Assembly (NCBI RefSeq): GCF_014203395.1
Contig: NZ_JACHIW010000001.1
Span: 5,315,501-5,379,500 of the forward strand
Direction of reading: 5' to 3'
Length of the DNA stretch: 64,000 nt
Origin: Saccharopolyspora phatthalungensis
Lineage (GTDB): Bacteria; Actinomycetota; Actinomycetes; Mycobacteriales; Pseudonocardiaceae
Shown here: positions 15,951 to 55,296 of the stretch, piece after piece
Numbering within the stretch: the first letter of the stretch is position 1
Layout: the number at the start of each line of letters is the position of its first letter
Notes under the pieces: model-generated
The model's input: the letters and a program-made list of their open reading frames with translations, nothing else
The model's database searches: none
Told to the model about the DNA's origin: nothing
Program-made: the position numbers and the translations under genes

Positions 15951-17872
15951 TGCTGCGTACACGCCATCGCGCCAGCCAGGCTTCGGTCGCAGCGCCGACC
16001 GCCAGTGCGTTCACGCCGGATGCGGTGAGCGTGGGTGCCCGGCATTTGGAAGTCGGCGGCGAGTGGGTCGCCTCCTTCGCCATCGTGGGCTATCCGCGTG
16101 AGGTCCATCCCGGCTGGCTGCAGCCCCTGCTGACCTATCCCGGCAGGTTGGATGTGTCGCTGCACATCGAGCCGATCGACCCCGCCACCGCCGCCACCCG
16201 TCTCAAACGGCAGCTGGCCAAACTGGAGAGTGGTCGGCGGCACACCGCCGAGCACGGCAGACTGGCCGACCCGCACGTGGAAGCGGCCACCGAGGACGCC
16301 TACGATCTCTCGGCCCGTATTGCGCGCGGCGAGGGCAAACTGTTCCGCCTCGGTCTGTATCTGACCATCCACGCCCCGTCGCAGGAGGCGCTGGCTGATG
16401 AGGTCGCCGCGATCCGGTCTCTGGCCGCGTCGTTGTTGCTGGACGCCAAACACACCACCTACCGCAGCCTGCAGGGGTGGGTGTCGACACTGCCCATGGG
16501 CCTCGATGTGGTGGGCATGCGCCGCACCTTCGACACCAGCGCCCTGTCGGCGGCGTTCCCGTTCACCAGCCCGGACTTACCGCCGACCGACCCGACCAGC
16601 GTGGCCGCGCCGTCCGGGGTGCTCTACGGCTACAACGCCCAGTCGCAAGGACTGGTGCACTGGGACCGCTTCGCACTGGACAACCACAACAGCGTGGTCC
16701 TGGGGCGCTCCGGCGCGGGAAAGTCCTACCTGGTCAAGCTTGAGCTTTTGCGCAGCCTGTATCGGGGGATCGAGATCTATGTCGTCGATCCCGAAGACGA
16801 ATATGCGCGGCTGGCGGCAGCGGTCGGCGGCACCTACGTCCACCTCGGCGCAGCGGGCGTGCGGCTCAACCCGTTCGACCTGCCCATCACTCTCGGGCCG
16901 GATGGGCGGCGCACCGCCCCGAAGGACGCCCTGATCCGCCGAAGCTTGTTCCTGCACACCGTGATCAGCGTGCTGATCGGCGCTGAGCCGGGCGCTGCCG
17001 AGCGGGCGGCGCTGGATCGGGCGATCGCCGCCACCTACCACCGCGTGGGGATCACCGCCGATGCCCGCACCTGGAGCCGACCCGCCCCCATCTTGGGGGA
17101 TCTCCGCGACACCCTCGCCGACGCGGGCAACAGTGGTGACGCGGCGGCGGGGGAGTTGGCCGCGCGGCTTCATCCCTATGTCGATGGTGCGTTCAAGCAC
17201 CTCTTCGACGGCCCTACCACTACCCGTCCGGATGGGCACCTCGTGGTCTTCTCGCTGCGTGATCTGCCCGACGAGCTCAAAGCGATCGGCACGCTGCTGA
17301 CGCTGGACGCGGTCTGGCGGCGGGTGTCCAATCCGGCGATCCGCAGGCCGCGGCTGGTCGTGGTCGACGAAGCGTGGCTGTTGATGCAACAACACGCCGG
17401 TGCGCAGTTCCTGTTCCGGATGGCCAAAGCCTCCCGCAAACACTGGGCCGGACTCACCGTCGCGACGCAGGACACCGCGGACGTGCTGGGCAGCGATCTC
17501 GGGAAAGCCGTGGTCGCCAACGCCGCCACGCAGATCCTGCTGCGGCAGGCGTCGCAGGCCATGGACGAGATCACCCGCACCTTCGATTTATCCGCCGGGG
17601 AAAGGCAATTCTTACTCTCAGCGGAGCGGGGCCAGGGCCTGCTGTCCGCGGGGACGCAGCGCGTGGCCTTTCAGAGTATTGCCTCGCCCACCGAGCACTA
17701 CCTGGTCACCAGCGACCCGGCCGAACTCGCCGACTATGCCGCCGATGCAGACCTCACCGACCCCGGCGCTGACGGATCCTATCTCGACCTCGGGGCCTTG
17801 GCCGAGGACAACGCCCTGATCGAGGGCGACGAATTCGGCCCCGGCGAAGTCCAGCTCGACCTCGACGCGTGA
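15947..17872 (+). CDS. virB4: VirB4-like conjugation ATPase
   Basis: The protein is 641 aa. Walker A is GRSGAGKSY near residue 254, followed by the VirB4-typical strand EIYVVDPEDEY. Walker B is RLVVVDEAWLLM near 470, and a downstream TVATQDTADVL segment carries the conserved Gln. The N-terminal 230 residues match the VirB4/TraC-type N-terminal region. This is the universal T4SS ATPase that powers channel assembly. Its start overlaps the PrgI stop. The C-terminus is acidic (EGDEFGPGEVQLDLDA). Confidence 0.92.
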   Translation: MMLRTRHRASQASVAAPTASAFTPDAVSVGARHLEVGGEWVASFAIVGYPREVHPGWLQPLLTYPGRLDVSLHIEPIDPATAATRLKRQLAKLESGRRHTAEHGRLADPHVEAATEDAYDLSARIARGEGKLFRLGLYLTIHAPSQEALADEVAAIRSLAASLLLDAKHTTYRSLQGWVSTLPMGLDVVGMRRTFDTSALSAAFPFTSPDLPPTDPTSVAAPSGVLYGYNAQSQGLVHWDRFALDNHNSVVLGRSGAGKSYLVKLELLRSLYRGIEIYVVDPEDEYARLAAAVGGTYVHLGAAGVRLNPFDLPITLGPDGRRTAPKDALIRRSLFLHTVISVLIGAEPGAAERAALDRAIAATYHRVGITADARTWSRPAPILGDLRDTLADAGNSGDAAAGELAARLHPYVDGAFKHLFDGPTTTRPDGHLVVFSLRDLPDELKAIGTLLTLDAVWRRVSNPAIRRPRLVVVDEAWLLMQQHAGAQFLFRMAKASRKHWAGLTVATQDTADVLGSDLGKAVVANAATQILLRQASQAMDEITRTFDLSAGERQFLLSAERGQGLLSAGTQRVAFQSIASPTEHYLVTSDPAELADYAADADLTDPGADGSYLDLGALAEDNALIEGDEFGPGEVQLDLDA

Positions 17873-17908
17873 GACCAGGCCCTGCTGGAGCCTCGCGTCT
17901 CCACGGTA

Positions 17909-40149: not shown

Positions 40150-43100
40150 TCACTTCGCTGCGGCCGTTCCACGGTGATTTCCTGCATGCTGCTGGCGGAT
40201 GGGGGATGTGGTGGACTCGGGGCGGTGTTGCAGGCGGGCGGCGAGTGTGAGGGCCTGGGGTGTGGGCTGCTCGCCGATCTCGGCCATGCGGGCCGAGAGC
40301 AGGGTGAGGGTGCGGGGGATCGCGTCGTGGTGGTCCAGGCGGTCTTGCAGGCGCATGATGTCGCGGTAGAGCAGTTCGTTGTGGGGGTCGAATTCCCGCG
40401 CGGTTTCCAGCAGGTCGAGCGTATATTGCGGGTCGGTGTCGACGTGGGCTCTCGCCAGTGCGGCCACGGCGTCGATGGCGTCGCGTCGGGCGGCTTCGCG
40501 GGCGGCGTCGATCCATTCGGTGTCCATCCCGTCGGCGAGTTGTCCGCCGTAGTGGGCGACGATGTGTCGCAGTGCGGTGATGCGTTCGGTGTCGGTGGTG
40601 GCCGTGCGTCGCGCCGCGATGGCGTGGTGGAAGTGCCAGTAGTCGGTATCGACCAGGGTGGGGTCGAGGTGGTAGCGGCCTTGTTCGGTGAGGGTGATGT
40701 CGGACAGGGCGCCGTCGGTGGCCTCGCGCACGCAGCGCCGCAGCCGTGACAGTGCGGTGTTGAGGGCGTTGGTGGGCCGGTCGGGAGGGTTGGCTTCCCA
40801 GAGCGCGGCCACGAGTGCGTCGCGGTGCACACCGTCGGGGTGCAGTGCCAAAAACACCAGCAGCTGGCGTTGCCGGGGCGGAAACACGGCGGTGACATCG
40901 CATTCCAGGCTGTCCTCGTCGTGACCATCGCGGCGCCAGCGCACCCGGGGCGAGCCCAGCACGGTCAACACGATCGGCGTGACCGGGCGATCACAGGCGA
41001 GTTCCTGCTCGGGTGCCTCGACGCCGTATCCGCCCGGGGAGACCGCGGAGTCGGTCACCAAAGACGCGCCGGTGTTGGCCGGCGTTCCTTCGGTGATCGC
41101 GGTGACCTCTAACTCGGCGTCGTCGCCGGCAGGGGTGGCCTCAGGCGGGTGTGTCGACGAGTCCTGCGTGTTCCCCGGTGTTTCGGGGGCGTTATCTAAC
41201 TGGGCTTGGTGTAAGAGGTTCATCAGGTCAGCGGCGGCGGCTTCGGGGAGCCGGAAAACGCGGGTGCCGCGGAGTGCTTCGCCGGGGCCGGGGCTGGTGG
41301 TCGAGATGGTGCCCTCCGAGCGGATGTAGGCGGTGATGCCGGGTCGCCATTGGCCCAGCAGGAGGCCGACGAGCCCAAGGTGGACACCGTTGTCCAAAAC
41401 CGACTGCAACCGCTGGGTGTCCTGCTGCGGGCTCCGGGCGACCAGGGCCAGGACCGGCCATTCCTGATGGTGGGAGCGGTGGTCGTCGCGGGTGCGGCGC
41501 AGGATCTCGGCCTCCAGCTCGTCGAGTGCGGTGTCCAGATCGGCCACGACCCGCAGCGTGGTGGGCCATTGGGTGCGGGTGTGCTGCTGTCCCAGCAGGA
41601 ACTGCAAGTGCTCGGCTGGGATTATCACCATGGCCCCGGCCTGTGACGGGCGTGGGGCTTTCCCGGCGGACGTGTTCTCGGTGGCCAGCATGCTGATCAG
41701 CAGCGCACGGGCCGCGGCTGGCGCACCCGCGCCGACTAATCCCAGTCCGTGTGCGGTGGCCAGCTCCAGCGCGATGTCACGTCCCTCGCGCACGCCGATC
41801 CCCGCTGCCGTATCCCCATCGAGACGAGCCCGGGCGTCGGCCGCGGCATTCGGGTCGGAATGCGTGCCCACGACAAGGGGTTTTGCGGAATGACGCCGAC
41901 CGATAGGGCTCCCGGTATCGGTGTCCGGGTTCTGGTTCTGGTCGGTGTCCTCGTGTTCGGCGCGCAGGTGCGCCAGCCGCAGCTGGTAGACCACCGGGGC
42001 GACAGGCAGGTCGTCGCGGCGCCGGCTGCCGGGCTGGTAGGTGCGGCGAGAGCGGCGGCGGGCGATCAGCAGCGCGGTACTGATCGCTGTGGCCAGACCC
42101 ACGCCGACGAATATCTCCGGGCTCAGGGCGATACCCGGATCACCTTGCGGGCGGGTGCCGGTCGGCGGGTCCGGTGCCGCCGGGCGGGCGGGAGTGGCCT
42201 GTTTCTGGGACGGGGACGGCGAAAGCATGGTTGAAGGAGCAGGTACGGGGGACAGGTAGGGCGGCATCGAGGCCAGCGGAGGCGGCATCGTGAGCGTGCC
42301 GTCCTGATCATCGTTGCGCGGTGGGGAGGTTGCGGGAGAGGTGGTGGGTGGCAGGGCGAGTTCTTCGCCGGGATAGATCAGATTCGGGTTGGTGAGTCTG
42401 CCTCCGCCGGGTTGGGGTTTTCCTTTGTTCGCCTCGAAGATCTCGGGCCAGCGGGTGCCATCGCCCAGGGTGCGTGCCGCGATGCGCGACAACGAATCGT
42501 GCACACCGTCTTCCGGCCCGCGCACGATTACGGTCGTCGCCACGGCCGCCGGGATCTCGGCGGAAGGGTGAACGGTCGAACCGTGAATGGTGCGCTGGAC
42601 CGTCGTGATTGAGTGGAGACAGGGTGGCGTTGGGTCCCATGCGGGGGCGGTCGCTGTGATCGCAGCACTGCGTCCGCCGGCGCCGTCGGAGATGCCGGCG
42701 GCGGTGGCAACGGCGCGGTTGCCCAGCACTGCGGCAACCAGGACGCCGACGAGGATCGCGGCCACGGCATGCACTGGCCCGCCAGGCTGCGGGTGCGGCC
42801 ACCGCAGGCCCTGCAAGGCAGCGACGGTGCAACGGGCGACGTCGACGACGAACGCCGCCCAGGTGATCCAGCACAGGCACGCCAGCACGTTCAGCACAAC
42901 CGACGTTGACATCGGGCCCAGCAGCACCGCCTCCATTTCGCCGACGTCGGGGAGATGGTCGGGCAGCGGCCAGCCGAGGTAGTGCCACAGCGCCCACGGC
43001 AACCCGGCCACCAACGCGACCAACAACACCGAGGCCAGCACACCCAGAACCAGGCGAGCCGCGATCCTGGCCACAGCCACGACAATCGGCCACACCAGGG

Positions 43101-43161
43101 TCGGCGCGCCGATGCGACGGCGATGTCGGCGGTGTCGATGGCGCGGTGGCGAGGCGGTCAT
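40150..43161 (-). CDS. membrane protein with LysM and BTAD domains
   Basis: The protein is 1003 aa. It has an Arg-rich N-terminus, several membrane helices between residues 25 and 165, then a LysM-like domain (about 215-265: VHDSLSRIAARTLGDG, then NPNLIYPGEELALP), a Pro-rich stretch and another membrane helix near 345 (VGVGLATAISTALLIARR). A large cytoplasmic part ends in a bacterial transcriptional activation domain (about 745-990: RPTNALNTALSRLRR, then an all-helical repeat region) of the SARP/AfsR type. It is probably a membrane-bound sensor or regulator. It is the downstream gene of the Tad operon on the minus strand. Confidence 0.78.
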   Translation of the reverse strand: MTASPPRHRHRRHRRRIGAPTLVWPIVVAVARIAARLVLGVLASVLLVALVAGLPWALWHYLGWPLPDHLPDVGEMEAVLLGPMSTSVVLNVLACLCWITWAAFVVDVARCTVAALQGLRWPHPQPGGPVHAVAAILVGVLVAAVLGNRAVATAAGISDGAGGRSAAITATAPAWDPTPPCLHSITTVQRTIHGSTVHPSAEIPAAVATTVIVRGPEDGVHDSLSRIAARTLGDGTRWPEIFEANKGKPQPGGGRLTNPNLIYPGEELALPPTTSPATSPPRNDDQDGTLTMPPPLASMPPYLSPVPAPSTMLSPSPSQKQATPARPAAPDPPTGTRPQGDPGIALSPEIFVGVGLATAISTALLIARRRSRRTYQPGSRRRDDLPVAPVVYQLRLAHLRAEHEDTDQNQNPDTDTGSPIGRRHSAKPLVVGTHSDPNAAADARARLDGDTAAGIGVREGRDIALELATAHGLGLVGAGAPAAARALLISMLATENTSAGKAPRPSQAGAMVIIPAEHLQFLLGQQHTRTQWPTTLRVVADLDTALDELEAEILRRTRDDHRSHHQEWPVLALVARSPQQDTQRLQSVLDNGVHLGLVGLLLGQWRPGITAYIRSEGTISTTSPGPGEALRGTRVFRLPEAAAADLMNLLHQAQLDNAPETPGNTQDSSTHPPEATPAGDDAELEVTAITEGTPANTGASLVTDSAVSPGGYGVEAPEQELACDRPVTPIVLTVLGSPRVRWRRDGHDEDSLECDVTAVFPPRQRQLLVFLALHPDGVHRDALVAALWEANPPDRPTNALNTALSRLRRCVREATDGALSDITLTEQGRYHLDPTLVDTDYWHFHHAIAARRTATTDTERITALRHIVAHYGGQLADGMDTEWIDAAREAARRDAIDAVAALARAHVDTDPQYTLDLLETAREFDPHNELLYRDIMRLQDRLDHHDAIPRTLTLLSARMAEIGEQPTPQALTLAARLQHRPESTTSPIRQQHAGNHRGTAAAK

Positions 43162-43204
43162 GGCCGGGGTCCTTCTGGTCTTACGGTTCGATTGTCTGAA
43201 CTGT

Positions 43205-43215
43205 CGTGGGTTCGC
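43205..43215 (+). repeat. possible left end of the recombinase element
   Basis: CGTGGGTTCGC here is the exact inverse of GCGAACCCACG at 47822-47832, beyond the GNAT gene. A near-identical CGTGGGTTCG occurs at 48935-48944, upstream of the truncated recombinase copy. Confidence 0.45.
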
Positions 43216-43354
43216 TCGGAAGCCTCGGTCCGAGGTCGAGCCTTTGTCCTGGTGGAAATGGGTTCACTCGATTGCATGGAGATTCCGACATTTGGTCGAG
43301 ATTTCCGACAGTATGCCGATGTTCTTGGCGCATTCGGTCTCCTGATGAACAGAG

Positions 43355-44434
43355 GTGTCCGTGGTACTGGCTGAGGTGCGGTCGTTGGGGACCGCGCGGC
43401 GGTTGCGCACTGCTGAGGAGTTGGAGGACTTCGAGCAGGAGCTGGTGGATCAGTTCGCGTTGGCGCAGGCGGGTGCGGGTTTGACCGACGGCGTGGTGGG
43501 GTCCTATCGGTCGGTGGTGTTCGAGTTCGTGCGGTTCCTTGGCCGCCCGGTGTGGACGACGCGCGCCGAGGATGTCGACCGGTTTCTGACTGATCAGCGC
43601 AAGAGGGGCCGGGCAGCGTCCACTGTGTATAAAAAGGCGGGAACGTTGGCGGCGTTCTTCGACTTCCTCGTTGTGCGGTATCAGGGTGATATCCACGCAG
43701 TGACGAGTTATGTGGTTGAACAGCCGGTCGATGAGTTCAACCGCCCGTCCAACCCGGACTGCGTGGCGCTGCGGGTGCCTCCGTCGCAGGACGAGGTCGA
43801 CATCCTGTTCACCGCGTGGCGTGAGGCGTTGCCGCATGCCCGGAAGTTCCTGCCGGCGGCGCGGGACTATATGGCCGCCTCGTTGTGGCGCCGGGCGGGT
43901 TTGCGGATCACCGAGACGGTGATGTTGGACATTCGTGATTGGCGGCCTGATTTGGGGGAGCGCGGCAAGCTGCACGTTCGGTTCGGCAAGGGGAGCCGGG
44001 GGCGCGGCCACAAGCCTCGCCTGGTGTCGGCTATCAACGATGTCGACGCGTTGGTGGAGTGGTGGCTGATTGATGTGCGCCACCAGTTCGGCCCGGACTG
44101 GTCGGACCCGGATGCTCCGCTGCTGCCGAGCGAGCGGCGCGACCGGGATACCGGTTTGTGTGTGCGTGTTGGTGATGATGCGTTGCGCTCGGGTCTGGCT
44201 GGGGCGGTGGGCCGGTGGCTTCCGGCGTGGGTGGGTCGGTTGACGCCGCATGGGTTGCGGCACTTTTGCGCCTCGTCGTTGTACACGCGTGGCATGGATC
44301 TTAAAGCTATACAAGAGATTTTGGGGCACGAGTGGCTGTCCACCACGACGCGGTACATCCATGTCCACGCCAACCACGTCGAACACGCCTGGGAGACGGC
44401 CAATCAGCGGGTGGCCTCCCGGCTCGGACAGTAG
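43355..44434 (+). CDS. tyrosine recombinase (first gene of a three-gene module)
   Basis: The protein is 359 aa from GTG 43355. The N-terminal core-binding domain spans residues 20-125. The catalytic set is complete: Arg184 (RRAGLRITE), a central basic segment GKGSRGRGHK, the box HGLRH at 299-303, His325 (LGHEWL) and Tyr334 (TTRYIHV). It is unrelated in length and sequence to the integrase at 6884. It is followed at 14 bases by a small HTH gene and then a Cys-rich recombinase-like gene. Its first 50 codons recur as a broken copy at 49039-49194. Confidence 0.92.
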   Translation: MSVVLAEVRSLGTARRLRTAEELEDFEQELVDQFALAQAGAGLTDGVVGSYRSVVFEFVRFLGRPVWTTRAEDVDRFLTDQRKRGRAASTVYKKAGTLAAFFDFLVVRYQGDIHAVTSYVVEQPVDEFNRPSNPDCVALRVPPSQDEVDILFTAWREALPHARKFLPAARDYMAASLWRRAGLRITETVMLDIRDWRPDLGERGKLHVRFGKGSRGRGHKPRLVSAINDVDALVEWWLIDVRHQFGPDWSDPDAPLLPSERRDRDTGLCVRVGDDALRSGLAGAVGRWLPAWVGRLTPHGLRHFCASSLYTRGMDLKAIQEILGHEWLSTTTRYIHVHANHVEHAWETANQRVASRLGQ

Positions 44435-44447
44435 CGGAGATGAACTG

Positions 44448-44762
44448 ATGCGGTGGAATCTGCGTATGAAGGCGGCTGAGGCCGGGATCTGGAAGTCCAC
44501 CGAGATGCGCCGACGGCTGGCCGAGGCCGGGTTGGAGATCAGCGCGGGCAAGATGTCGGCGCTGTGGACCGGGACTCCCACCACGATCCGGTTGGACGAC
44601 TTGGACGTGATCTGCGCGGTGCTGAAATGTGAACCCACCGATCTGCTGATCCGCGAGCAGGAGAAGGTGGCCGCCCGCAGGCCGCGGAAGGCGGCGGAGG
44701 CCACCGGCGGCACGGTGGTCACCCCACGGTTTGGCCGGCACCGGTCGGTGCCCCCAGCGTGA
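44448..44762 (+). CDS. small XRE/Cro-like helix-turn-helix protein
   Basis: The protein is 104 aa from ATG 44448 (MRWNLRMKAAEAGIW). The helix-turn-helix spans residues 12-70 (MRRRLAEAGLEISAGKMSAL, then IRLDDLDVICAVLKCEPTDL), of the Cro/C1 type with the typical 'dLd.IC..L.c...dLl' ending. It is sandwiched between two recombinase-like genes; its stop overlaps the next start as GTGA. It is likely the module's regulator or directionality factor, by position only. Confidence 0.82.
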   Translation: MRWNLRMKAAEAGIWKSTEMRRRLAEAGLEISAGKMSALWTGTPTTIRLDDLDVICAVLKCEPTDLLIREQEKVAARRPRKAAEATGGTVVTPRFGRHRSVPPA

Positions 44763-47086
44763 GTGGACGCCCGTGGCCGCGGCCCTGCCGTGTGTGCGGT
44801 CAGCGACCGGTCAAGCACCGCCAGTCTGATTACTGCTACACGTGTCAGCCCGGCGGACCGGTGACCCCGCCGCCCTGCCTGCGCTGCGGCTCCACGCAGA
44901 ACTACTACAGCGCAGGCTTGTGCGCGCGCTGCCACCGGTTCTCCCCGCTGACCATCGACTCGTGCGACGACTGCTACGCGTGGGGCGCGACCCGCACGAA
45001 CAAGTGGCTGTGCCAGGGCTGCCGCAGCTGGCGGCGTCGCCGCCCGGTCGCCGACTGTCGCACCTGCGGTCGGCACGTGGCCGTCGACCCCGTCCTCGAC
45101 GTATGCCGGTTGTGCTGGCGTCAGGCCGAACTGCTGGGCACCGACGACATCGCCGCCGCTGTTGAGCACGGGCATCAGTTGTTCTTCGCCGAGCTGTTCC
45201 GCAGCCGCAGAGGAAAGGCCACTCGCCCCGGTCCACAGGGTCGCCGTCCGGGACCGACACCGCAGTTCGCCGCAACTGGAGCACCGTCGCGGAAAGTGCT
45301 GCAGTGGACCATCTTTGACGCGCTGCGGCCGAACAAAGTCACTACTCCACGGCCATGCACTCGGTGCGGCCAGCGGCCGGTCAAGTCCGCCCAGTCCGAC
45401 TACTGCTATCCCTGCCAGCCCGGTGGGCCCGTGACTCCGCCGCCGTGCCGAAAGTGCGGCTCGACCACCGACTACTACACCGCCGGCCAGTGCATCCGCT
45501 GCCACCGGTTCTCGCCACTGACGGTGGACTCCTGCCCGGACTGCCACGCATGGGGTACACGGCGAACCAACAACTGGCTGTGCGAGGGCTGCCGCAGCTG
45601 GCGCCGCTACCACTCCAACGTCGCCGCCTGCCACATCTGTGACCGAACGCGGCACGTCAACGACGACGGCGTATGCCGGTTGTGCCGCAAACAGGCGCTG
45701 TGGCTGCCCAATGGCGCAGCAGAGCTTGCGGCGCACATCCGGAGTTGGGGACACCAGTTGTTCTTCGCGGACATGTTCGCCGGGCTCGGCGTGCGTGCCG
45801 CTCGCGCCGCCGCTGCCGAGCGGAACCGGCTCCTGGCTGCGCAACCGATCCCGCCCCGGCGCCCGGTCCGCCACCAGCAGCTGGTCGCCTTCACCCTTCC
45901 CCGAGACCTGCACACTGGCCGCGAGCGTGGCTTTCCTCAGCCCCGCGATCGTGGACTGGTTACCTACCTGGACGCGTGCGTCACCGACCACGCAACCCGG
46001 CATGGCTGGGAGGCAAAGGTCGCCACCCGCGCAAGGATGGGGCTGCACATCCTGCTCGGGCTGCAGGACACCCCAGGCGCGGCCATCAACGCCAGCGACG
46101 TGATCGCGCTGTCCTGTTTGGAAGTTCCCGTGCGCCCGATCCTCGACGTCCTGGCCGTCGCCGGGTTCCTCCGTGACGACCGGGTCCCCACCATCGACCT
46201 GTGGTTCGCCGCCAAGACCGCCGACCTGCCCGCCGCGATGGTGATTGACCTGCAGTTGTGGTTCGAGGTGATGCGTCACGGCCGCACCAGCCCGCCACGC
46301 AGCAAACCCCGCGCCCCGAGAACGGTCCAAGCGCAACTGCGGCGGGCGCTGCCCGCCCTGCACACGTGGGCCGCGGCCGGGCACGAGCATCTGCGGGAGA
46401 TCACCCGCGACGAGGTACTCGCCGTACTGCCCGCCTCCGGAACGGCCCGGCACACCATGCTCTCGGGACTGCGGTCCATCTTCCGGCTGCTTAAAGCCCA
46501 CAAGCGCGTGTTCCTCAACCCGACCGCACGCATTCCGGTCGGCAGGCTCACCGGCCGCGTCCCGCTGCCCACCCCGGTGAAGCGAATCCGCGAGGCGTTG
46601 GGCAGCGACGACCACACCCGCGCTGCCATCGCCGCGCTGGTCGCCTTCCACGCCTTGTCCCCCGGGCAGCTGCGCAACCTGCAGCTCACCGACATCTACG
46701 ACGCCCGCCTGCACCTGGGCGACCGCAGCATCCCGCTCGCCCGACCGGTGCATGAGCGGCTGCGGGCTTACCTCGACTACCGCGCCGCCCGCTGGCCGGC
46801 CACGGCCAACCCACACCTGTTCATCCACTACCGCAGCGCCAACCACCTCGGCCCCGTCCAGATCGAATGGCTGGCCCACCGGCTGGGCCTTTCCACCCAA
46901 GCCCTGCGCGAGGACCGCATCCTCCACGAAGTCCACGCCACCGGCGGCGACATCCGCCGCCTCTGCGACCTGTTCGGCCTGTCCGTCGGCGGCGCCGAGC
47001 GCTACACCACAGTGCTCGACCACCCTGCCATCAACAGCACCAACAGCCAGGCGGCCAGCCGCACCGACCCCACAGGACCAGCCTGA
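44759..47086 (+). CDS. 32-cysteine protein with degenerate tyrosine recombinase domain
   Basis: The protein is 775 aa from GTG 44759. Two nearly identical zinc modules (residues 10-120 and 200-310) each hold eight CxxC pairs at matching positions 190 residues apart, with shared strings such as QSDYCY and PGGPVTPPPC. The C-terminal part (about 500-760) follows the tyrosine recombinase pattern (AALVAFHALSPGQLRNL, then REDRILHEVHATGGDIRRL, then GLSVGGAERYTTVLDH). It keeps the Tyr but lacks the first catalytic Arg, the H of the HxxR box and the LGH histidine. A DNA-binding or architectural partner of the active recombinase is the best guess. Confidence 0.75.
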   Translation: MSGRPWPRPCRVCGQRPVKHRQSDYCYTCQPGGPVTPPPCLRCGSTQNYYSAGLCARCHRFSPLTIDSCDDCYAWGATRTNKWLCQGCRSWRRRRPVADCRTCGRHVAVDPVLDVCRLCWRQAELLGTDDIAAAVEHGHQLFFAELFRSRRGKATRPGPQGRRPGPTPQFAATGAPSRKVLQWTIFDALRPNKVTTPRPCTRCGQRPVKSAQSDYCYPCQPGGPVTPPPCRKCGSTTDYYTAGQCIRCHRFSPLTVDSCPDCHAWGTRRTNNWLCEGCRSWRRYHSNVAACHICDRTRHVNDDGVCRLCRKQALWLPNGAAELAAHIRSWGHQLFFADMFAGLGVRAARAAAAERNRLLAAQPIPPRRPVRHQQLVAFTLPRDLHTGRERGFPQPRDRGLVTYLDACVTDHATRHGWEAKVATRARMGLHILLGLQDTPGAAINASDVIALSCLEVPVRPILDVLAVAGFLRDDRVPTIDLWFAAKTADLPAAMVIDLQLWFEVMRHGRTSPPRSKPRAPRTVQAQLRRALPALHTWAAAGHEHLREITRDEVLAVLPASGTARHTMLSGLRSIFRLLKAHKRVFLNPTARIPVGRLTGRVPLPTPVKRIREALGSDDHTRAAIAALVAFHALSPGQLRNLQLTDIYDARLHLGDRSIPLARPVHERLRAYLDYRAARWPATANPHLFIHYRSANHLGPVQIEWLAHRLGLSTQALREDRILHEVHATGGDIRRLCDLFGLSVGGAERYTTVLDHPAINSTNSQAASRTDPTGPA

Positions 47087-47137
47087 ACAGCAACAATTCC
47101 CTCGCCACCGCGAAACCTCACTGGTTTGATCGCACCC

Positions 47138-47749
47138 ATGACCTCGATCTGGACTGGTAGCAAGGTCCGCCTGCGCGGCATCGAGCCCGAGGACTGGCAA
47201 GCCTTCCAACGCTTCGACGAGCACTCGACGGACATGCGCAACGGCGACATGATCCACCCACCCCGCTCGGCCGCCGGCTACCGCGAATGGGCAGCAACCC
47301 AGGCCGCCAAGCAGAGTGCGGGCGACGAGCTCCTGCTCGCCATCGAAACGCGTGCCGACCAGACCCTCGTCGGCACACTCTCCACAGGAAACATCGATCA
47401 GCGCGCAGGCCGCTTCAGCTACGGAATCAGCATTGGCCACGACCACCACCGGCTTGGCTACGCCACCGACGCCATCCGCCTGCTGCTGACCTACATGTTC
47501 GGCGAACGTCGTTACCACAAGTGCGAAGTCAGCATCTACGCCTTCAACGAAGCATCGATCGCGCTGCACCGAAAGATCGGCTTCCAGACCGAAGGGCGGC
47601 TGCGTGACCACGAATACTTCGCAGGACACCACCACGACCTCGTGGTAATGGGACTGACTATCGACGAATTCGCCGCAAGCCACCCCTTTGCCGACGTCCA
47701 GGAACATGCTCAGTCGGCCGGACTCCCAGACGGGGCCGCCGGTTTCTGA
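47138..47749 (+). CDS. GNAT-family acetyltransferase
   Basis: The protein is 203 aa from ATG 47138 (MTSIWTGSKVRLRGIEPEDW). It has the RimJ/RimL-type GNAT pattern: KVRLRGIEPEDWQAF, TLVGTLSTGNID, YGISIGHDHHRLGYATDAIR for acetyl-CoA binding, and NEASIALHRKIGFQTEG near the end. It presumably acetylates a small molecule or protein N-terminus. It sits 51 bases after the recombinase module and ends just before the shared Tad 3' tail, like the methyltransferase in the second insertion, so it looks like cargo. Confidence 0.85.
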   Translation: MTSIWTGSKVRLRGIEPEDWQAFQRFDEHSTDMRNGDMIHPPRSAAGYREWAATQAAKQSAGDELLLAIETRADQTLVGTLSTGNIDQRAGRFSYGISIGHDHHRLGYATDAIRLLLTYMFGERRYHKCEVSIYAFNEASIALHRKIGFQTEGRLRDHEYFAGHHHDLVVMGLTIDEFAASHPFADVQEHAQSAGLPDGAAGF

Positions 47750-47769
47750 ACCGAAGCATCCGACTAGCC

Positions 47770-48306
47770 TCATCCAGCACCAGCCTCACGTGAGTTCCCG
47801 CCACCGTCCACTTCAGAATTGGCGAACCCACGGGAAATGCCCACCACCCCGCGCTGTGGGTGCGCGCTGCCGCTGCCGTGCACCGGCAGCGACGAAATCC
47901 CCACCAGGCCCAGAAGTTGGGTGCGCTGAGTGCTGGTGACGGCGACGGTCACGGTGTCGCCGGACACCGACACCGTGCCGGTCGCGCCCACCCGAGCGAG
48001 GTAGCTTTGGGCCTCGGCGACGGCCTGGTCCGGCACCAGCCGCATCGTGCCGCTGGCGCGGTAGGCGTTGAGGTCGAGGGCTTGGGCGCCGGCGCGTGCG
48101 GCGGCTTCGGCGTGGCCACCTGCGCGGACTTTCGCCGCCAGGGCCAGGCCGCCGTCCAAGGTCAGCCCGGCCATGGCGACGATCGCGACCACCAGGGTTA
48201 CGACGAACGCCGAGACCCGGCCCTCCTCGGTGCCCCACCACTGTCGCCGCCCTCGCAGCCACGAGCCCACCCTGCCGGTGCAGGAGGGCGGTGCGTGTCC
48301 GGTCAT
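47770..48306 (-). CDS. TadG/TadE-like pilus assembly protein
   Basis: The protein is 178 aa from ATG 48306, overlapping the previous stop (ATGA). A cytoplasmic basic N-terminus is followed by one membrane helix ([20 protein letters not shown]) and then an Ala-rich extracytoplasmic domain, the plan of Tad/Flp minor pseudopilin-like proteins; [20 protein letters not shown] is typical of TadE/TadG 'putative helicase/secretion neighbourhood' proteins. The last 20 residues ([17 protein letters not shown]) resemble the tail of the protein at 50046, although the bodies differ. Confidence 0.75.
47795..47829 (-). repeat. shared 3' tail, copy 1
   Basis: TTCCCGCCA at 47795 and CTTCAGAATT.GCGAACCC at 47811-47829 recur at 50071-50108 with one codon more between them. 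Both copies encode the C-terminal tail of a Tad gene and both lie directly after a convergent cargo gene. Confidence 0.6.
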
Positions 48307-48839: not shown

Positions 48840-48934
48840 GGCCGGTTCACCTCCCGCTCGCGGCGAGATCTGTCAGAACACTCACGAGTTCCCTTGGTCT
48901 GACGAAGCCCTGGTCATCGCTTCTTGCCGGTAGC

Positions 48935-48944
48935 CGTGGGTTCG
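48935..48944 (+). repeat. possible left end of the second insertion
   Basis: CGTGGGTTCG matches the presumed left end of the larger element (43205-43215) and is inverted relative to CGCGAACCC at 50100-50108. Confidence 0.4.
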
Positions 48945-49038
48945 TACGATCGCGATGGAAAGTTGACGTTCGTTCGAGATTCCTGATAGATCGTCGATCT
49001 ACGCGACGGATGGTCGTGCCTGGCGAAGTGAGGTGCTC

Positions 49039-49194
49039 ATGTCGGTCGCGGTGGTGCGGTCGCTGGGTAGCGGGCGGCGGCTGCGGACGCCGTAGGAGTT
49101 GGAGGACTTCGAGCAAGAGTGGGTCGACCAGTACCTGCTGGCCGCCGTCGGCGCCAGCCGGTACACCACTGGGCTCACCGGCGCCCGGCAGTAG
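49039..49194 (+). pseudogene. truncated copy of the module recombinase N-terminus
   Basis: ATG 49039 begins MSVAVVRSLGSGRRLRTP, then a TAG, then ELEDFEQEWVDQYLLAAVGA, ending at TAG 49194. It aligns with residues 1-48 of the recombinase at 43355 (MSVVLAEVRSLGTARRLRTA, then ELEDFEQELVDQFALAQAGA) and has no catalytic part. It is a relic of a second copy of the same element. Confidence 0.85.
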
Positions 49195-49203
49195 CCTGGG
49201 ATC

Positions 49204-50001
49204 GTGACGGAGCTGGACCGGGAACTGCTGCGAACGACCTTCGGCGAAGACGCCGACCGATACGATCGTTGCCGGCCTGGCTATCCGTCCGAGCTGTTCG
49301 ACGATCTCGTAAGCCTCGCCCCCATTCACTCTCGATCTCGCGCGCTGGAAATTGGCTGCGGCACCGGCCAAGCAACGCTTCCGTTGGCCCGGCTTGGATG
49401 CGCGGTTGTCGCGGTCGAACTCAGCGCTGACATGACTGACATCGCACGGCGGCATCTCTCCGGATTTCCCGCAGCACAGGTGGTGGTGTCGGCTTTCGAG
49501 GAGTGGCCGTTGCCCGCTACGAAGTTCGACGTCGTGCTCTCGGCGACGGCCTTCCACTGGATCGACCCCGACATCCGGATGAACAAGGCCGCCGACGCCC
49601 TCCACCCTGACGGCACCTTGGCACTGATCTCGACCCACCACATCGCCGGTGGCACCGAGGCATTCTTCGCCGAAGTCCAGAGCTGTTACGAGCGCTTCGA
49701 CCCCAACACACCACCAGGCTTGCGCCTGCCAGCAACTGATGCTGTGCCCACCGATTCCACCGAGATCGATCAATCGAACCGCTTTGGTCCCGTCGAGTTC
49801 CGTCGCTACGAGTGGGAACAGACCTACAGCACCCAGGAATACATCGACCTGTTGCTGACCTACTCGGGACACCGCGCCCTGCACCCAGACCGCCAACAAC
49901 GCCTGCTGAGCTGCATCGCGAACCTGATCGACACCAACTACGGCGGACAGATCACCAAGCGATACTTGACGCAGTTGGTCACCGCACACCGCGCAAGCTG
50001 A
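49204..50001 (+). CDS. SAM-dependent methyltransferase (cargo)
   Basis: The protein is 265 aa from GTG 49204. It is a class I methyltransferase: ALEIGCGTGQATLPLA (motif I), VAVELSADM (motif II), FDVVLSATAFHWID (motif IV, the FHWI form typical of small-molecule methyltransferases) and LHPDGTLALIS (motif V/VI). The substrate is unknown. It starts nine bases after the recombinase relic and ends 45 bases before the 3' end of the convergent Tad gene. Confidence 0.88.
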   Translation: MTELDRELLRTTFGEDADRYDRCRPGYPSELFDDLVSLAPIHSRSRALEIGCGTGQATLPLARLGCAVVAVELSADMTDIARRHLSGFPAAQVVVSAFEEWPLPATKFDVVLSATAFHWIDPDIRMNKAADALHPDGTLALISTHHIAGGTEAFFAEVQSCYERFDPNTPPGLRLPATDAVPTDSTEIDQSNRFGPVEFRRYEWEQTYSTQEYIDLLLTYSGHRALHPDRQQRLLSCIANLIDTNYGGQITKRYLTQLVTAHRAS

Positions 50002-50045
50002 GGCGACGCCAACCGTCCGAGTCGAACCGGAACGCACTGATACCG

Positions 50046-50648
50046 TCATCCGGTTCCTCCAGCACTCGGATTCCCGCCAGAAGAGACCGCTTCAGAATTC
50101 GCGAACCCGTCAACGTTGGGTACGAACCTCTCCACGGGCCCTGCGGCTTCGGCGTGGACTGGCAAAGCGAGCAATGGGATCACCGCGGAGGCTTCACCGG
50201 TCACGCGGATCGAGGCGGCATCGGCACCACGCGTGGCCGCGATGTGGGTGTTGGTCAGCGGGCCACGGCCAAGCTGATCGAGCACCTGCTGGGCCTCCGC
50301 GCTGCCGTCGGCCGCCGTGCCGGTTTGTACCCGTGCGGCAGCCAATCCCTGCGAGGCGGCGGCTTGGGCGATGTGGGTGGCGTGCGACCACAGCGCGAAC
50401 TGTACGATCGCCAGCAGCATGAGCAGTAACAAAGGGGTAGCGATCACGAGCTCGGCGCTGACCGATCCCCGATCCCCGCCCAGCACCTTGCGCAGCTGTG
50501 GCAGCCTGGCCGCGTGCCAGATGGCTGGCCGTGATCGGTAGCGGTTCTGTAGGGATTCCGTGGAGTTGTCCGCTCGGGACGGCGTCCTGTCCATCGGTTC
50601 CTGCGGAAACGGTGTGAACTTTCGGCGTGCTTGTCCGTGGCGGAGCAT
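50046..50648 (-). CDS. TadE-like pilus assembly protein
   Basis: The protein is 200 aa from ATG 50648 (AAGGA upstream; ATG 50594 is possible). GDRGSVSAELVIATPLLLLM is a clear TadE signature and membrane helix, followed by AQAAASQGLAAARVQTG and an Ala/Val-rich extracytoplasmic domain. The C-terminal tail GFANSEAVSSGGNPSAGGTG resembles that of the 47770 protein. It is the last uninterrupted gene of the main Tad operon before the second insertion. Confidence 0.82.
   Translation of the reverse strand: MLRHGQARRKFTPFPQEPMDRTPSRADNSTESLQNRYRSRPAIWHAARLPQLRKVLGGDRGSVSAELVIATPLLLLMLLAIVQFALWSHATHIAQAAASQGLAAARVQTGTAADGSAEAQQVLDQLGRGPLTNTHIAATRGADAASIRVTGEASAVIPLLALPVHAEAAGPVERFVPNVDGFANSEAVSSGGNPSAGGTG
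50071..50108 (-). repeat. shared 3' tail, copy 2
   Basis: TTCCCGCCA at 50071 and CTTCAGAATTCGCGAACCC at 50090-50108 match the segment at 47795-47829. See that entry. Confidence 0.6.
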
Positions 50649-50883
50649 TGCAGTTGTCCTTTTCCTTGACCGTGGCTGCCCTCTGCCGTCCGCTGACAGG
50701 GCAGACGCTGTGCTTGCGGTCTGTGCGATATCGCCGTGTCACCAGCAGAATCGGCAACCGATGTCCGTTCGTGGAAGGACAAGTAGCCAGCGTCTCGGAC
50801 ACGGGAAGGACAAGTAAGGTGCTCAGAGGGCATCTTCGTTGCCTCCCTACAGGTTCGGTCGCGTCGTGAGCCGGGGGCTCATG

Positions 50884-51081: not shown

Positions 51082-51111
51082 CTTCTTGCCTCTTCTCCTG
51101 CGCAGGGCGGA

Positions 51112-52005
51112 TCACAGTCCATTGAGGACCTGTGTCAGTGCCGGATATCCGATGAATACGAGGAACCCGAGGAACAAGGCCACCACCGGTAGGGACATGC
51201 GTTCGGTGGCTGCCTGGGCTTCGGCTTCGGCGTCGGTGATCTGGTGGGTTCGCAGTGCTGCGGCCTTTGCCGCCAACGACGCGCGGACCTTGGCGCCTTC
51301 GGTGCCGGCCAGCGAGACGGAGGCGGCGAGTTCGGATAGTTCGGTGACGTCGAGTTCGTCGCCGAGTTGCCGCAGGGTGGCCCAGGGCGTGGTGCGTGTG
51401 AGCCGCGCGGTGGACAACGCGCGGCGGATCTGTGCGAAGGCCCAGCCGCGGCCGACGGCGACGGAGTCGCCGAGTGCGCTGTCCACGCCGGCGCCGCCGG
51501 CCAGGGTGATCCACACCAGATCGAGGTAGGCCGAGAGCGCATGCCGGAATCCGGTACGCAGCTTCGCCGCTTCGGAGCGGGAGCGCAGATCGGGGAGGAG
51601 GAATCCGAGTCCGGCCAGCACGAGCCCGGCGATTACCGGTACCTCCAGCCCCAGCCAGACCCCGCCGAGGGCCAACACCAGTTGCACGGCCACGGGTAGA
51701 AGCAGCCCGATCAGCGCCACCGTGGCCTTTTCCGCCAGATGGGTGGAGATCGGACGGCCGAACACCGCCAGGTCCCGGCGAAGCCGAGCACTGGGCAACC
51801 CGAGTGCTCGCAAAGGGCTAACGAACGGGCGGCCCAGCCGCGCCGCCCAGCCTTCGGCGTCGGTCGCCAGGATAGGCGGAGGCGCCACCGGTCTGGTCGC
51901 TCGGGCCAGCACCTCACCCAATGCGGGACGGGGCGGGAACAGCCACACGCTCAGCGACCACAACCCGACACCGAGCCCCATTCCAAGCAGCAGCACGGTG
52001 ATCAC
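51112..52005 (-). CDS. tadC: TadC (GspF-like) inner-membrane protein
   Basis: The protein is 297 aa from GTG 52005, overlapping the TadB stop (GTGA). Membrane helices lie near both ends and in the middle (VALIGLLLPVAVQLVLALGG), with the T2SSF-type cytoplasmic domain containing GFRHALSAYLDLVWITLAGG and LSELAASVSLAGTEGAKVR. With TadB it forms the platform that couples the TadA ATPase to pilus assembly. Confidence 0.88.
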   Translation of the reverse strand: MITVLLLGMGLGVGLWSLSVWLFPPRPALGEVLARATRPVAPPPILATDAEGWAARLGRPFVSPLRALGLPSARLRRDLAVFGRPISTHLAEKATVALIGLLLPVAVQLVLALGGVWLGLEVPVIAGLVLAGLGFLLPDLRSRSEAAKLRTGFRHALSAYLDLVWITLAGGAGVDSALGDSVAVGRGWAFAQIRRALSTARLTRTTPWATLRQLGDELDVTELSELAASVSLAGTEGAKVRASLAAKAAALRTHQITDAEAEAQAATERMSLPVVALFLGFLVFIGYPALTQVLNGL

Positions 52006-52922
52006 GGCGACACCTGCCTTCCCGAGACGTCCTCCCCTTGGCCTCCAGCAATGCCAGGCGCTGCTGCTGCCAAGAACCGCGTTGGCTCGGACACCGTGGC
52101 GATGCGGGCCAGCCAGGCGAAGCCCAACGCGAATAGCCCGCCGACGGCCAGCAGCATCAGCTGCCCGGTGGGTGAGTCGTAGGCGGCCAGGTAGGAGCGG
52201 TTGAGCAGCACGATCCCGACGGCGAACGCGCAGGTGGTGCCGACGATGACCCGCACGGAGGTGCGGGTGCGAGCGCGACCGGCCTCCACCCGCATCCGCA
52301 TCGATGCCTGGTCCCGCGCTGCCTTGGCCAGTGATCCGAGGAGTTCGCCGAGCTGGCGGGCTCGTTGTTCGGAGGCCAGCACCAGCGAGGCGATCACCAA
52401 GTCCCCGGTGGGATCGGCCAGTTGGTCGGCCAGCACGCGCAGGGACGGCGCCAGGCGTTCGCCGTTTTCCAACCGTGCGGCGAGTTCGGTGATCTCAGGC
52501 CGGATCGCCGTGGGTGACAGGGGTGCGGTGGCGAGAATCGCTTGTTCCAAGCCGGCTGCGGAGGCGAGGGTGTCGCGCAGCATTTCCGTCCACGTGGCGA
52601 TGGCCTCGATCCGGGCGATGCGCCGGGCGTGCTCCGGATCTCGCCCGAGCACGCGCGGCAAGGCCCAGCACGCCAACCCGGCCAACAGCGCACCGACGAC
52701 CCATCCGGTCACGACCCCCGCGAGCAGGCCGACCGTCAGGACGCCGGTCACGCGCAGCAGAAGCCGTTGCTGGTTGCGGTTGCCGCGGTGCCAGCGCGCG
52801 AACCTTCGGGGCCGGTGCGCAGGCACGCCGCGCCAGCCGCTGATCACCAGCAGCAGGCCCACGCCGATCCCAAGTCCGAGCACGGCGGCCACCACCGTGG
52901 TGGTATTGATCGCCGGTGTCAT
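52002..52922 (-). CDS. tadB: TadB (GspF-like) inner-membrane protein
   Basis: The protein is 306 aa from ATG 52922, which overlaps the TadA stop (ATGA). An N-terminal helix (VVAAVLGLGIGVGLLLVISG), a second pair near 75-110, and a T2SSF domain (IEAIATWTEMLRDTLASAAG, then LRVLADQLADPTGDLVIASL) are followed by two C-terminal helices. It is the partner of TadC. Confidence 0.88.
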   Translation of the reverse strand: MTPAINTTTVVAAVLGLGIGVGLLLVISGWRGVPAHRPRRFARWHRGNRNQQRLLLRVTGVLTVGLLAGVVTGWVVGALLAGLACWALPRVLGRDPEHARRIARIEAIATWTEMLRDTLASAAGLEQAILATAPLSPTAIRPEITELAARLENGERLAPSLRVLADQLADPTGDLVIASLVLASEQRARQLGELLGSLAKAARDQASMRMRVEAGRARTRTSVRVIVGTTCAFAVGIVLLNRSYLAAYDSPTGQLMLLAVGGLFALGFAWLARIATVSEPTRFLAAAAPGIAGGQGEDVSGRQVSP

Positions 52923-54406
52923 CGCGGCCACCAGCCCTCGGGGGCTTCGAGCAGGTCCGGGTCGAAGCCGGCGTCGATGAGGTCGTCAAGGGTGTCGGTG
53001 CGCAGCGCCCCAGGCACCGGCAGCGCGCGGCGGTCGGGGCCGGGCCTGTAGACCTCGTTGGAGATGACCTGCGCTCCGTCGGCACCGACGACTTCGCGGA
53101 CCGAGGAGACCACCCGGGTGGTGCGGTCGGTGGCTTTGGCCAGGTGCACCACGAAATGCACGGCGGAAGCGACCAACAGGTTCGTGGCTTCCACCGGAAG
53201 ACGTTCGGGGCCTTGGGCGGCGTAGGAGGCCAGGCGGGTGAACGCGATCCGCGATGACGAGGCATGCAGGGTGGCCATCGATCCATCGTTGCCTTGGGAC
53301 ATGGCGTTGCACATCGGGATCACTTCGGGTCCGCGGATCTCGCCGACAATGACCCGGTCCGGACTCATGCGCAGGCCCCAGCGGACGAGTTCGGCCTGGG
53401 AGATCGCGCCCTCGCCTTCGACGTTGGCCTCGCGGGCCTGGAAGGCGGTGACGTCCGCGTGCAGTTCCGGGTCGATCTCCAGGCCGAGCTCGAAGGCGTC
53501 CTCGATGGTCACCAGGCGTTCCATCGGGTCCATCTCCGAGGCCAACGCTCGCAGCATGGTGGTCTTGCCGATGCCGGTACCGCCGGTGATGAGAATGTTC
53601 TTGCGTGCCCGCACCAATGCGCGCAGGAACGGCTCCAAGCCGGGGTCGATGGTGCCCTGGGCGCGCAGCTGGGCCAGGGTCACGGTGAGGTAGGCGTGCC
53701 GGCGGATCGACAGCGACGTCACCCCACCCGAGGTCAACCCCATCACCGCGAACAACCGCTCCCCGCCGGGAAGTTGCAGGTTCACCGCCGGGGAACCCCG
53801 GTCGAACCGCCGTTCTTCCGACGACGCCCGGGCAGCGAGCATCCGCACCAGATCGGTCAATTCCTCATTCGAGGCGGCGATCGGTGCGACCTGCGTGCGG
53901 CGTCCGTCGTTGTACTGGACGAAGACCCGGTCGAACCGGTTGGCGTTGATGGTCTCCACCGTCGGGTCGTCCAACAACGGTTGCAGACCCGCCATGCCGA
54001 ACACTTCGTTGATGACTTCGGTGATCGCTTGTTGCTCGATGTCTTTGGTGACGAGCATGCGGTTGGCCATCAGCTCGGTTTCGCTGTGGGAGCGCACCGC
54101 CTCGTCGAGGATGGCTCGCGCCAGCTCGCGGCGTCCCTCGCGGGTCACCGCTGTGCCGGTGCGTCGCTGCTGGGCATCCGCGGCATTGGGTAGTTCGGTG
54201 GCCAGCGCGTCGCGGAGATGTTGTCGCAGCCGGGCTAGCGCCGCCGTCGCCTCGGACGACGTTTCGCTGGATGGCTGTAAGGCGGAGGCAGACGGACTGC
54301 GGTGTTGCCAGGGCGATTCCTGCCCTGGCTCGGACGGCGTGATGGGCTGTCCACCGGGCTGCGGCAGCGGGATCGGTTGCGGGGAGCCGTTGTTCGGAAA
54401 AGTCAT
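52919..54406 (-). CDS. tadA: TadA/CpaF pilus assembly ATPase
   Basis: The protein is 495 aa from ATG 54406, whose first bases overlap the TadZ stop. A Pro-rich N-terminus is followed by an N-terminal domain and a GspE/VirB11-type ATPase: Walker A GGTGIGKTT, the Asp box VTIEDAFELGL, Walker B-like DRVIVGEIRGPE, and the His box MATLHASS. It powers pilin polymerisation at the inner membrane. All key motifs are intact. Confidence 0.93.
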   Translation of the reverse strand: MTFPNNGSPQPIPLPQPGGQPITPSEPGQESPWQHRSPSASALQPSSETSSEATAALARLRQHLRDALATELPNAADAQQRRTGTAVTREGRRELARAILDEAVRSHSETELMANRMLVTKDIEQQAITEVINEVFGMAGLQPLLDDPTVETINANRFDRVFVQYNDGRRTQVAPIAASNEELTDLVRMLAARASSEERRFDRGSPAVNLQLPGGERLFAVMGLTSGGVTSLSIRRHAYLTVTLAQLRAQGTIDPGLEPFLRALVRARKNILITGGTGIGKTTMLRALASEMDPMERLVTIEDAFELGLEIDPELHADVTAFQAREANVEGEGAISQAELVRWGLRMSPDRVIVGEIRGPEVIPMCNAMSQGNDGSMATLHASSSRIAFTRLASYAAQGPERLPVEATNLLVASAVHFVVHLAKATDRTTRVVSSVREVVGADGAQVISNEVYRPGPDRRALPVPGALRTDTLDDLIDAGFDPDLLEAPEGWWPR

Positions 54407-55296
54407 GGCATGCCTCCAGTTCGCGATGTGTCCTCCGAGGACGGCGCGTTCGTCGGCGGTGTGCTCGGTGACCCGGCCCGGTGCCCGTTCGGCGTCGCAG
54501 GCTGGGTGGCCTCCCCGGAGACCGCACGCAGCACCGGCACGGGAGGACTCGCCGCGTCGCCGGAGGGTGCAGCGGGCCGGTGCGCCAGCACGGCCCGCGC
54601 CACGCCGCGTGCGGTGCGGCCCAACGCGGACCGCGACGGGCCGCGTCGACCGCCGGGTCGACCGCACAGCACCGCCGCACCGCGACGGTCCTCGGGAATC
54701 CGGCCCATTGCCGGCACACCCAGCTCACGGGAGACCTCAGCGGTCGAGTAGCCCTCGCCGACCAGCAACAGCCCCGGGCGAGCCGACCATCGGCTCACCG
54801 TGTTCAGGCGGGTGGCCACGTGCGCCAAGTCGTCGGCGTGCGCTCTGCTCAACACCAGCAGCACGTCCGCCGACCGCACGATCGGCAGTACCACAGATCC
54901 GGGATCGACCCGCCCGCAGTCGGCAATCACCACCGTGTCCGGTGCTCCTGCCGCGAGCTGCAGCACGCCCTCGTCGGCGCGTCCAGGGGCCAGTGCCGCT
55001 AATGCGGCTCGCGCATGGTCCGCGCCCGGCGGAGCGGCCACCACCGGCAACCCGCCCGGCAACGGCTGCGTGTGCTGCCACAGCAACCCCGCCTCGGTGC
55101 TGCGTCGTGCCGCCGCGGCCAGGCTCACCACCCCGGGCGAGGAGGCCAGCGAGAACCGGGTCGCGATGTCCCCGCCAGAAGGGTCGCACTCGATGAGCAC
55201 ACACCGCGCTTCGCCGGGCCAGCGCGCCGCCAGCGCGACCGAGAAAGTCGTCACCCCAGGGGATCCCTTGAGACTGCAGACGGCCACCAACATCAC
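54403..55296 (-). CDS. tadZ: TadZ/CpaE-like P-loop protein
   Basis: The protein is 297 aa. SLKGSPGVTTFSVALA is a deviant ParA/MinD-type Walker A, followed by CVLIECDPSGGDIATRF and VVIADCGRVDPGS (the second Asp box). A Pro/Ser-rich C-terminal 90 residues are probably disordered. TadZ positions the Tad machine at the pole or membrane. It is tightly coupled to CpaB upstream and TadA downstream. A related but partial protein lies at the right edge of the window (63572-64000). Confidence 0.8.
   Translation of the reverse strand: MMLVAVCSLKGSPGVTTFSVALAARWPGEARCVLIECDPSGGDIATRFSLASSPGVVSLAAAARRSTEAGLLWQHTQPLPGGLPVVAAPPGADHARAALAALAPGRADEGVLQLAAGAPDTVVIADCGRVDPGSVVLPIVRSADVLLVLSRAHADDLAHVATRLNTVSRWSARPGLLLVGEGYSTAEVSRELGVPAMGRIPEDRRGAAVLCGRPGGRRGPSRSALGRTARGVARAVLAHRPAAPSGDAASPPVPVLRAVSGEATQPATPNGHRAGSPSTPPTNAPSSEDTSRTGGMP

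Follow-up and report, generated by a model that had tools for sequence, protein, structure and literature searches.

Tn554 is a transposon that carries cargo. The available parts of PMC10214605 and PMC3414803 assign the catalytic motif to both of its recombinases, TnpA and TnpB, and a 6-bp footprint is reported in PMC10214605 both for Tn554 and for the strand-biased circularizing integrative elements (SE). As described in the accessible part of PMC10214605, SE have four core genes (intA, tfp, intB, and srap) with two catalytic recombinases and are reported only in Gammaproteobacteria; RIT elements are given there with a catalytic motif in all three proteins and 34-bp inverted repeats. GInt elements have a ginABCD operon encoding three integrases and a small HLH protein, and zinc modules are not mentioned in the available part of their description (PMC5385486). 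In actinobacteria, a Tn554-related class (Famint27/33, 36/41, and 53/62) comprising short and long recombinase genes on plasmids including pNOCA01 is described in the accessible part of PMC3414803. XER modules are presented as XerD-XRE-XerC in the available part of PMC6305408, without ends, a footprint, a target rule, or zinc modules.

This study analyzed a 64,000-nucleotide stretch of Saccharopolyspora phatthalungensis DNA (the window), for which an earlier note had described three coupled genes, here termed p1, p2, and p3. The trio was confirmed as described: an intact tyrosine recombinase, an HTH protein, and a degenerate recombinase with 16 CxxC pairs. The only Pfam match of p2 was HTH_26. 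The trio lies in an insertion, element 1, and a related, non-autonomous insertion, element 2, lies 1 kb away. Taken as a whole, the sequence comparisons are best explained by element 1 being a site-specific transposon that relies on a tyrosine-recombination machinery of three proteins, a reading that we consider highly probable. The features are listed in Table 1.

Table 1. Features of the two elements and of their surroundings (window coordinates).
Feature	Position	Strand	Remarks
T4SS genes PrgI, VirB4-like (TraG P-loop), coupling-protein-like	14745..20590	+	same island as element 1
Left neighbor of element 1	40150..43161	-	weak LysM and Trans_reg_C matches, both under Pfam cut-offs
Left flanking hexamer TTCGAT	43187..43192	+	same as empty-site hexamer, L130 site 1
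Left end of element 1	43193..43215	+	inner repeat CGTGGGTTCGC at its close; boundary +/- 1-2 bases
p1 tyrosine recombinase, 359 aa	43355..44434	+	PF00589 4.6e-17; complete R-K-HxxR-H-Y set by residue conservation
p2 Cro/C1-type HTH protein, 104 aa	44448..44762	+	PF13443 1.4e-13
p3, 775 aa	44759..47086	+	two 8-CxxC modules (16 CxxC pairs) and degenerate tyrosine-recombinase fold
Cargo GNAT acetyltransferase	47138..47749	+	PF13302 1e-20
TadG-like gene hit by element 1	47770..48306	-	PF13400 Tad 3.1e-5, above cut-off
Right end inner repeat GCGAACCCACG	47822..47832	+	inverted copy of left repeat
Right hexamer GGAAAT	47833..47838	+	absent from empty site; putative brought-in footprint
Element 2	48871..50117	+	1247 bp including right hexamer AACGTT; related to element 1, non-autonomous
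Decayed p1-type gene start in element 2	49019..49142	+	73% to 43341-43464; internal stops
Element 2 cargo methyltransferase, 265 aa	49204..50001	+	PF13649 3.4e-19
TadE gene hit at 3' end by element 2	50046..50648	-	PF07811 3.9e-11; C-terminal tail changed
Tad genes: T2SSF x2 (TadB/TadC type) and T2SSE ATPase	51112..54667	-	

Element 1 lies in a conjugation-like island (window 14745-22730 and 40150-54667) that contains PrgI, VirB4-like, coupling-protein, Replic_Relax, and NlpC/P60 genes and a Tad pilus locus. The island recurs in the same genome at 3.66-3.69 Mb (loci L130, L131, and L133), and the VirB4 and TadG proteins of that copy were 91% identical to those of the window. L130 aligned with the window in four pieces, with DNA identities of 74.8%, 92.6%, 89.0%, and 94.2%, and the alignment jumped at two places in the window, 43192 to 47837 and 48864 to 50108; L130 therefore lacks both elements. 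The borders carried one or two ambiguous bases, and no target duplication was seen at either element in this base-level comparison. Element 1 thus defined spans 43193-47838 (4646 bp) and includes the GNAT cargo gene, for which tblastn found no match in the named loci; the exact inverted match between its ends is 11 bp. Its right end replaces the last codons of the TadG-like gene, the product of which ends in ...GVEDIEP* in L130 and in a different 26-letter tail in the window. Element 2 consists of a left end at 48871, the decayed p1-type start, the methyltransferase gene, a right end at 50111, and the hexamer, and it has no p1-p2-p3 trio of its own.

Other parts of the surroundings were also inspected. 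The 3' region of VirB4 (window 17860-17910), a frequent target of the family elsewhere, carried no element in this window. In pNOCA01, a LysM-domain gene adjoins a TadG-related gene. Window 59701-62387 contains two adjacent genes, presumably of the IstA/IstB type, with relatives near L032.

An independent case came from the Paenarthrobacter plasmid NZ_CP101182, an empty version of the site occupied in Arthrobacter pZXY23, which fixes the ends of a relative. The two were 99.1% identical over 1001 nt of flank, longer flanking pieces were 97.0% and 97.9% identical, and the net insertion in pZXY23 was ~3.47 kb with one ambiguous base. When hexamer borders (left hexamer, element, right hexamer) were placed, which was done after the sites had been inspected, exactly one end hexamer equaled the empty-site hexamer in all three filled/empty comparisons, and the other hexamer differed. 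The footprint polarity was not uniform: the matching hexamer was on the left in element 1 (TTCGAT) and pZXY23 (TTCCGA) and on the right in element 2 (AACGTT). The polarity of SE, in which the right end bears the brought-in 6 bp and the left end those of the target, thus fits two of the three comparisons and is reversed in the third, which may stem from the history of the paralogous site. Right hexamers differed among related copies with conserved neighboring bases (L038/L042, L044/L052, and L139 and L142 versus L141/L143). One right hexamer was common to L021, L022, and L025 and another to L071, L074, L141, and L143, as copies from one donor would show; within these groups, L022/L025 and L071/L141/L143 are close relatives located at different sites. 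Read from these alignments, insertion proceeds without target duplication and with a 6-bp footprint.

The family scan, in which named genomes were searched with p3, yielded 78 loci. Both p1 and p2 preceded p3 in 77 of them, the exception being L086, where p1 was not found upstream; because the loci were found through p3, only a p1 search of 100 genomes views this linkage from the other side. Among these 100 (the own genome and 99 relatives), 15 had a p3 match, some of them fragments, and p3 adjoined p1 in nine of the ten relatives (own genome excluded) with a p1 match at E <= 3.2e-51, G059 being without p3. Several contigs of ~3.4 kb consisted of the trio alone, which is expected of collapsed multi-copy elements, and their starts exhibited a similar 17-18 nt and GTTC-like layout to the left end of element 1. 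The first ORFs after p3 were read as MerR and YnfA, ArsR with efflux, thioredoxin reductase, kinase, and GNAT genes. In five informative pairs (L064/L065, L066/L070, L081/L088, L083/L084, and L085/L089), elements 92-99.9% identical were joined to dissimilar left flanks, and the shared sequence began at the left end or no more than a few bases from it. The earlier note had read the module as a cargo-bearing mobile unit bracketed by inverted ends; that proposal survived both the gene-linkage comparison across the 78 loci and the filled versus empty comparison in the own-genome island and NZ_CP101182, and it is supported by the empty sites, the related elements in unrelated flanks, and the conserved gene order.

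Several more distant or atypical loci were observed. G006, from the same genus, had nine p3 matches of ~33-45% identity, several of them short or split, that adjoined p1 relatives. In L148 and L149 (Rhodococcus and Mycobacterium plasmids) the p1-p2-p3 order was present with third genes annotated at 271 and 328 aa, the starts of which are perhaps mis-annotated. A possible remnant of a distant trio was seen at ~186100-188440 of plasmid pREL1 (NC_007491), where recombinase fragments, an HTH gene resembling p2, and a weak match to the p3 profile (E 1.1e-11) stand in a row. In L072, L073, L064, L093, and L096, sequences resembling right ends by eye directly preceded the left ends, which suggests side-by-side insertions at one site.

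The targets were counted in the 62 loci whose flank reached 2.5 kb or more on one side, by searching each for similarity to one constant panel of query proteins. T4SS genes were neighbors in 33 loci and Tad genes in 15 (together 48 of 62), ssb in five, and none of the queried genes in nine. In 15 of the 48, no more than 300 nt separated the T4SS or Tad gene from the point where the p3 alignment stopped, and cargo or up to ~8 kb intervened in the others; ssb lay 164-205 nt from p3 in three of its five cases and farther away, not at the junction, in two, and L037, an ssb case, abuts a glutaredoxin-like gene (PF00462). Some queries were taken from the loci themselves (L060, L067, L068, L073, and L031); the first four loci also had PrgI or coupling-protein matches, and L031 is an SSB by Pfam. 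The same queries gave no match in any of 40 control stretches (17.6 kb each, two from each of 20 related genomes), a contrast that serves as a guide and not as a matched test, because the controls came from the largest contigs of one order and the loci span more orders and plasmids. All matches in the element loci were antisense to the element (0 plus, 415 minus). Thirteen plasmid records had one place covering at least 80% of p3; ten were opened, and T4SS or Tad genes were present in all ten stretches. In seven of these ten, the right end abutted a TadB gene or an ATPase gene next to SCO6880/PrgI. The ATPase was named VirB4-like by position and by mostly sub-threshold DUF87, AAA_10, or TraG matches, and its homolog in the window scored above the cut-off.

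At 30 hand-placed junctions, many of which lie in mutually homologous genes, the residue three codons before the joint was aromatic in 18, and counting aliphatic residues as well brings the number to 29; three of the frames contain or end in a stop. The C-terminal tail was altered in all three empty-site cases, with the VirB4-like KWTTSETLLEPAAPVLPSEGASE becoming KWTTNSEKFA and the TadG and TadE tails also changing. L083 and L085 had identical left flanks (299/299) and different elements, L083 being 79% identical to L089, the 99.4% near-twin of L085; this pair could reflect independent insertion at one base or an exchange by homologous recombination. Judged by these neighbors and junctions, members of the family insert repeatedly, with a single orientation, into DNA-transfer and Tad-pilus genes that lie on plasmids and islands of actinobacteria.

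Sequence comparison of the family gives defined ends, the fixed order p1-p2-p3, and cargo between p3 and the right end. Insertion is antisense to the host gene, often in the 3' region of tadB, tadE, tadG, a T4SS VirB4-like gene, or ssb, and the right end supplies a new short tail. We infer mobility from these regularities. Counting against the transposon reading are the placement of the hexamer borders after inspection, the mixed polarity, the right hexamers shared by close relatives at different sites, the nine loci without a queried neighbor, the two ssb cases away from the junction, and the alternative of homologous recombination for L083/L085. In the proposed mechanism, p1 would cut and join through a circular intermediate, and the circle joint would comprise two inverted arms flanking a 6-bp spacer, as in Tn554, SE, and Tn916. 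The degenerate recombinase domain of p3 would bind core sites, its zinc modules would contact neighboring DNA or hold the synapse and thereby bias target choice, and p2 would bind the ends, either to regulate the reaction or as a directionality factor. Insertion into genes on conjugative plasmids and islands could let the element be carried from host to host.

For p2 and p3, we infer the roles from the protein folds and from gene linkage. The recombinase fold of p3 is supported, its catalytic set is degenerate, and a PF00589 search does not detect it. Among its relatives, R-II was retained in 78/78 loci, the Tyr in 74/77, the first Arg in 35/78, and all three in 31/78; p3 in the window keeps R-II and the Tyr, and p3 may therefore not be wholly inactive. 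This retention would accord with p3 itself working as a recombinase beside p1, with an unusual active site and in the manner of TnpB or IntB, and so would the two recombinases employed by Tn554 and SE (PMC10214605, available part). Both catalytic His, however, are lost in nearly all relatives (H-II present in 4/78 and H-III in 0/78), the p3 of the window lacks the first Arg as well, and we regard a second working recombinase as rather unlikely. About equally unlikely is that p3 acts only as a regulator or immunity factor and that p1 and p2 suffice for movement and target choice. The full catalytic set in p1 alone, the better conservation of p1 and p2 than of p3 across loci, and the short annotated third genes of the Rhodococcus and Mycobacterium plasmid relatives, should their starts be correct, are consistent with such a limited role; the company of p3 and p1 in 77 of 78 loci, although these were found through p3, and in nine of the ten other relatives with a strong p1 match argues against it. 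A contribution of the zinc-finger p3 to targeting or architecture is plausible, and p3 probably helps in the choice of T4SS and Tad sites. A stronger version, held only tentatively and as less probable than not, is that this pseudo-recombinase is the target-choosing subunit and that every subgroup of the family is adapted to a conserved coding site within conjugation or Tad-pilus genes; the element would then ride on actinobacterial conjugative DNA and leave the host gene readable with a new tail.

The T4SS/Tad neighborhood might also reflect selection instead of targeting, insertions that tune conjugation or pili being kept as helpful to the host, and the changed C-terminal tails of the hit proteins would suit this idea. 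It is nevertheless improbable, given that the same base is occupied by different elements in L083 and L085, that all target matches share one orientation, and that the residue three codons before the joint is so constrained, even if homology links many of these genes. Elements 1 and 2, with their short distance and common end motifs, might be parts of one composite insertion; yet they lie in different genes, the empty copy aligns across the 1 kb between them, and the left end of element 2 is closer to that of L035 (Amycolatopsis vastitatis) than to that of element 1, which makes a single insertion very improbable.

With element 1 read as a site-specific transposon, its precise ends and the natural empty/filled pairs make the mechanism directly testable. 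The family represents transposons that would settle, with varied cargo, in the genes by which conjugative plasmids and islands of Actinomycetota are transferred. The literature searched, mostly without subscription papers and including the available part of PMC8138268, contained no account in which the ends, the footprint, the T4SS/Tad target rule, or the degenerate partner with its zinc modules are described. The ends, footprint, target rule, and scope are apparently new; the gene order was already known from XER modules.

The XER modules of Antarctic Arthrobacter plasmids, noted in 2018, are the closest in gene order and are perhaps distant cousins: as described in the accessible part of PMC6305408, they share with element 1 a tyrosine recombinase, an XRE/HTH regulator, a large third gene, and then cargo. 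The module of pA40H2 (NZ_MH067971) encodes proteins of 373, 116, and 828 aa, and the 828-aa product contains 18 CxxC; its core proteins were 26/30/27% identical to p1/p2/p3 (E 3e-14, 4e-11, and 2e-6, the last over a cysteine-rich stretch), and the A2 profile gave no significant whole-protein match. XER modules are inserted between umuD and umuC, whereas element 1 lies at tadG and element 2 at tadE.

Plasmids pNOCA01 and pREL1 each carry, at positions other than that of the trio, a separate short/long pair above the PF00589 cut-off, which would be Famint36/41. The Tn554-related class of PMC3414803, as seen in its available part, thus appears to be a different pair on the same plasmids, and the trio was rejected as a member because the long partner there is a recognizable recombinase with a catalytic motif and p3 is not. 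A different short/long tyrosine-recombinase pair was also observed at 23314-25701 of L140 (Pseudonocardia pFRP1-2), on the same plasmid as a trio. RIT elements resemble element 1 in their three tightly coupled genes of ~3.5 kb (PMC3414803, available part). The earlier note had likened the trio to them, and this comparison failed: one protein alone has the full catalytic set, p2 is an HTH protein, p3 lacks both the H-II and the H-III His, and the exact inverted match is only 11 bp.

By analogy, SE, GInt, and Tn554 would be the closest in mechanism, and element 1 would work like Tn554 and SE. The likeness to Tn554 comprises a three-gene recombination module, site specificity, and a 6-bp footprint (PMC10214605 and PMC3414803, available parts), and sequence comparison found the Tn554-type footprint and target specificity in the element family; element 1 was rejected as Tn554 since the RHRY set occurs in p1 alone and in both TnpA and TnpB of Tn554. 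GInt, as far as described in the accessible part of PMC5385486, shares a GinC without the first Arg, site-specific insertion including ssb and gene 3' ends with altered C termini, and cargo; element 1, without a ginABCD operon with three integrases, was rejected as a GInt. SE share a tyrosine recombinase and a recombinase-fold protein without the catalytic set in a coupled operon, inverted end motifs, a 6-bp footprint, target specificity, and cargo (PMC10214605, available part). Element 1 departs from SE in having a single full catalytic set together with an HTH protein and zinc modules, and it was rejected as an SE because its core comprises three genes, which several 3.4-kb contigs carry alone, in place of four. 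Element 1 would thus add a three-protein, zinc-bearing branch to the few known groups of tyrosine-recombinase transposons, and it offers a simple system for the role of degenerate recombinase partners, a question that applies equally to Tfp of SE and GinC of GInt.
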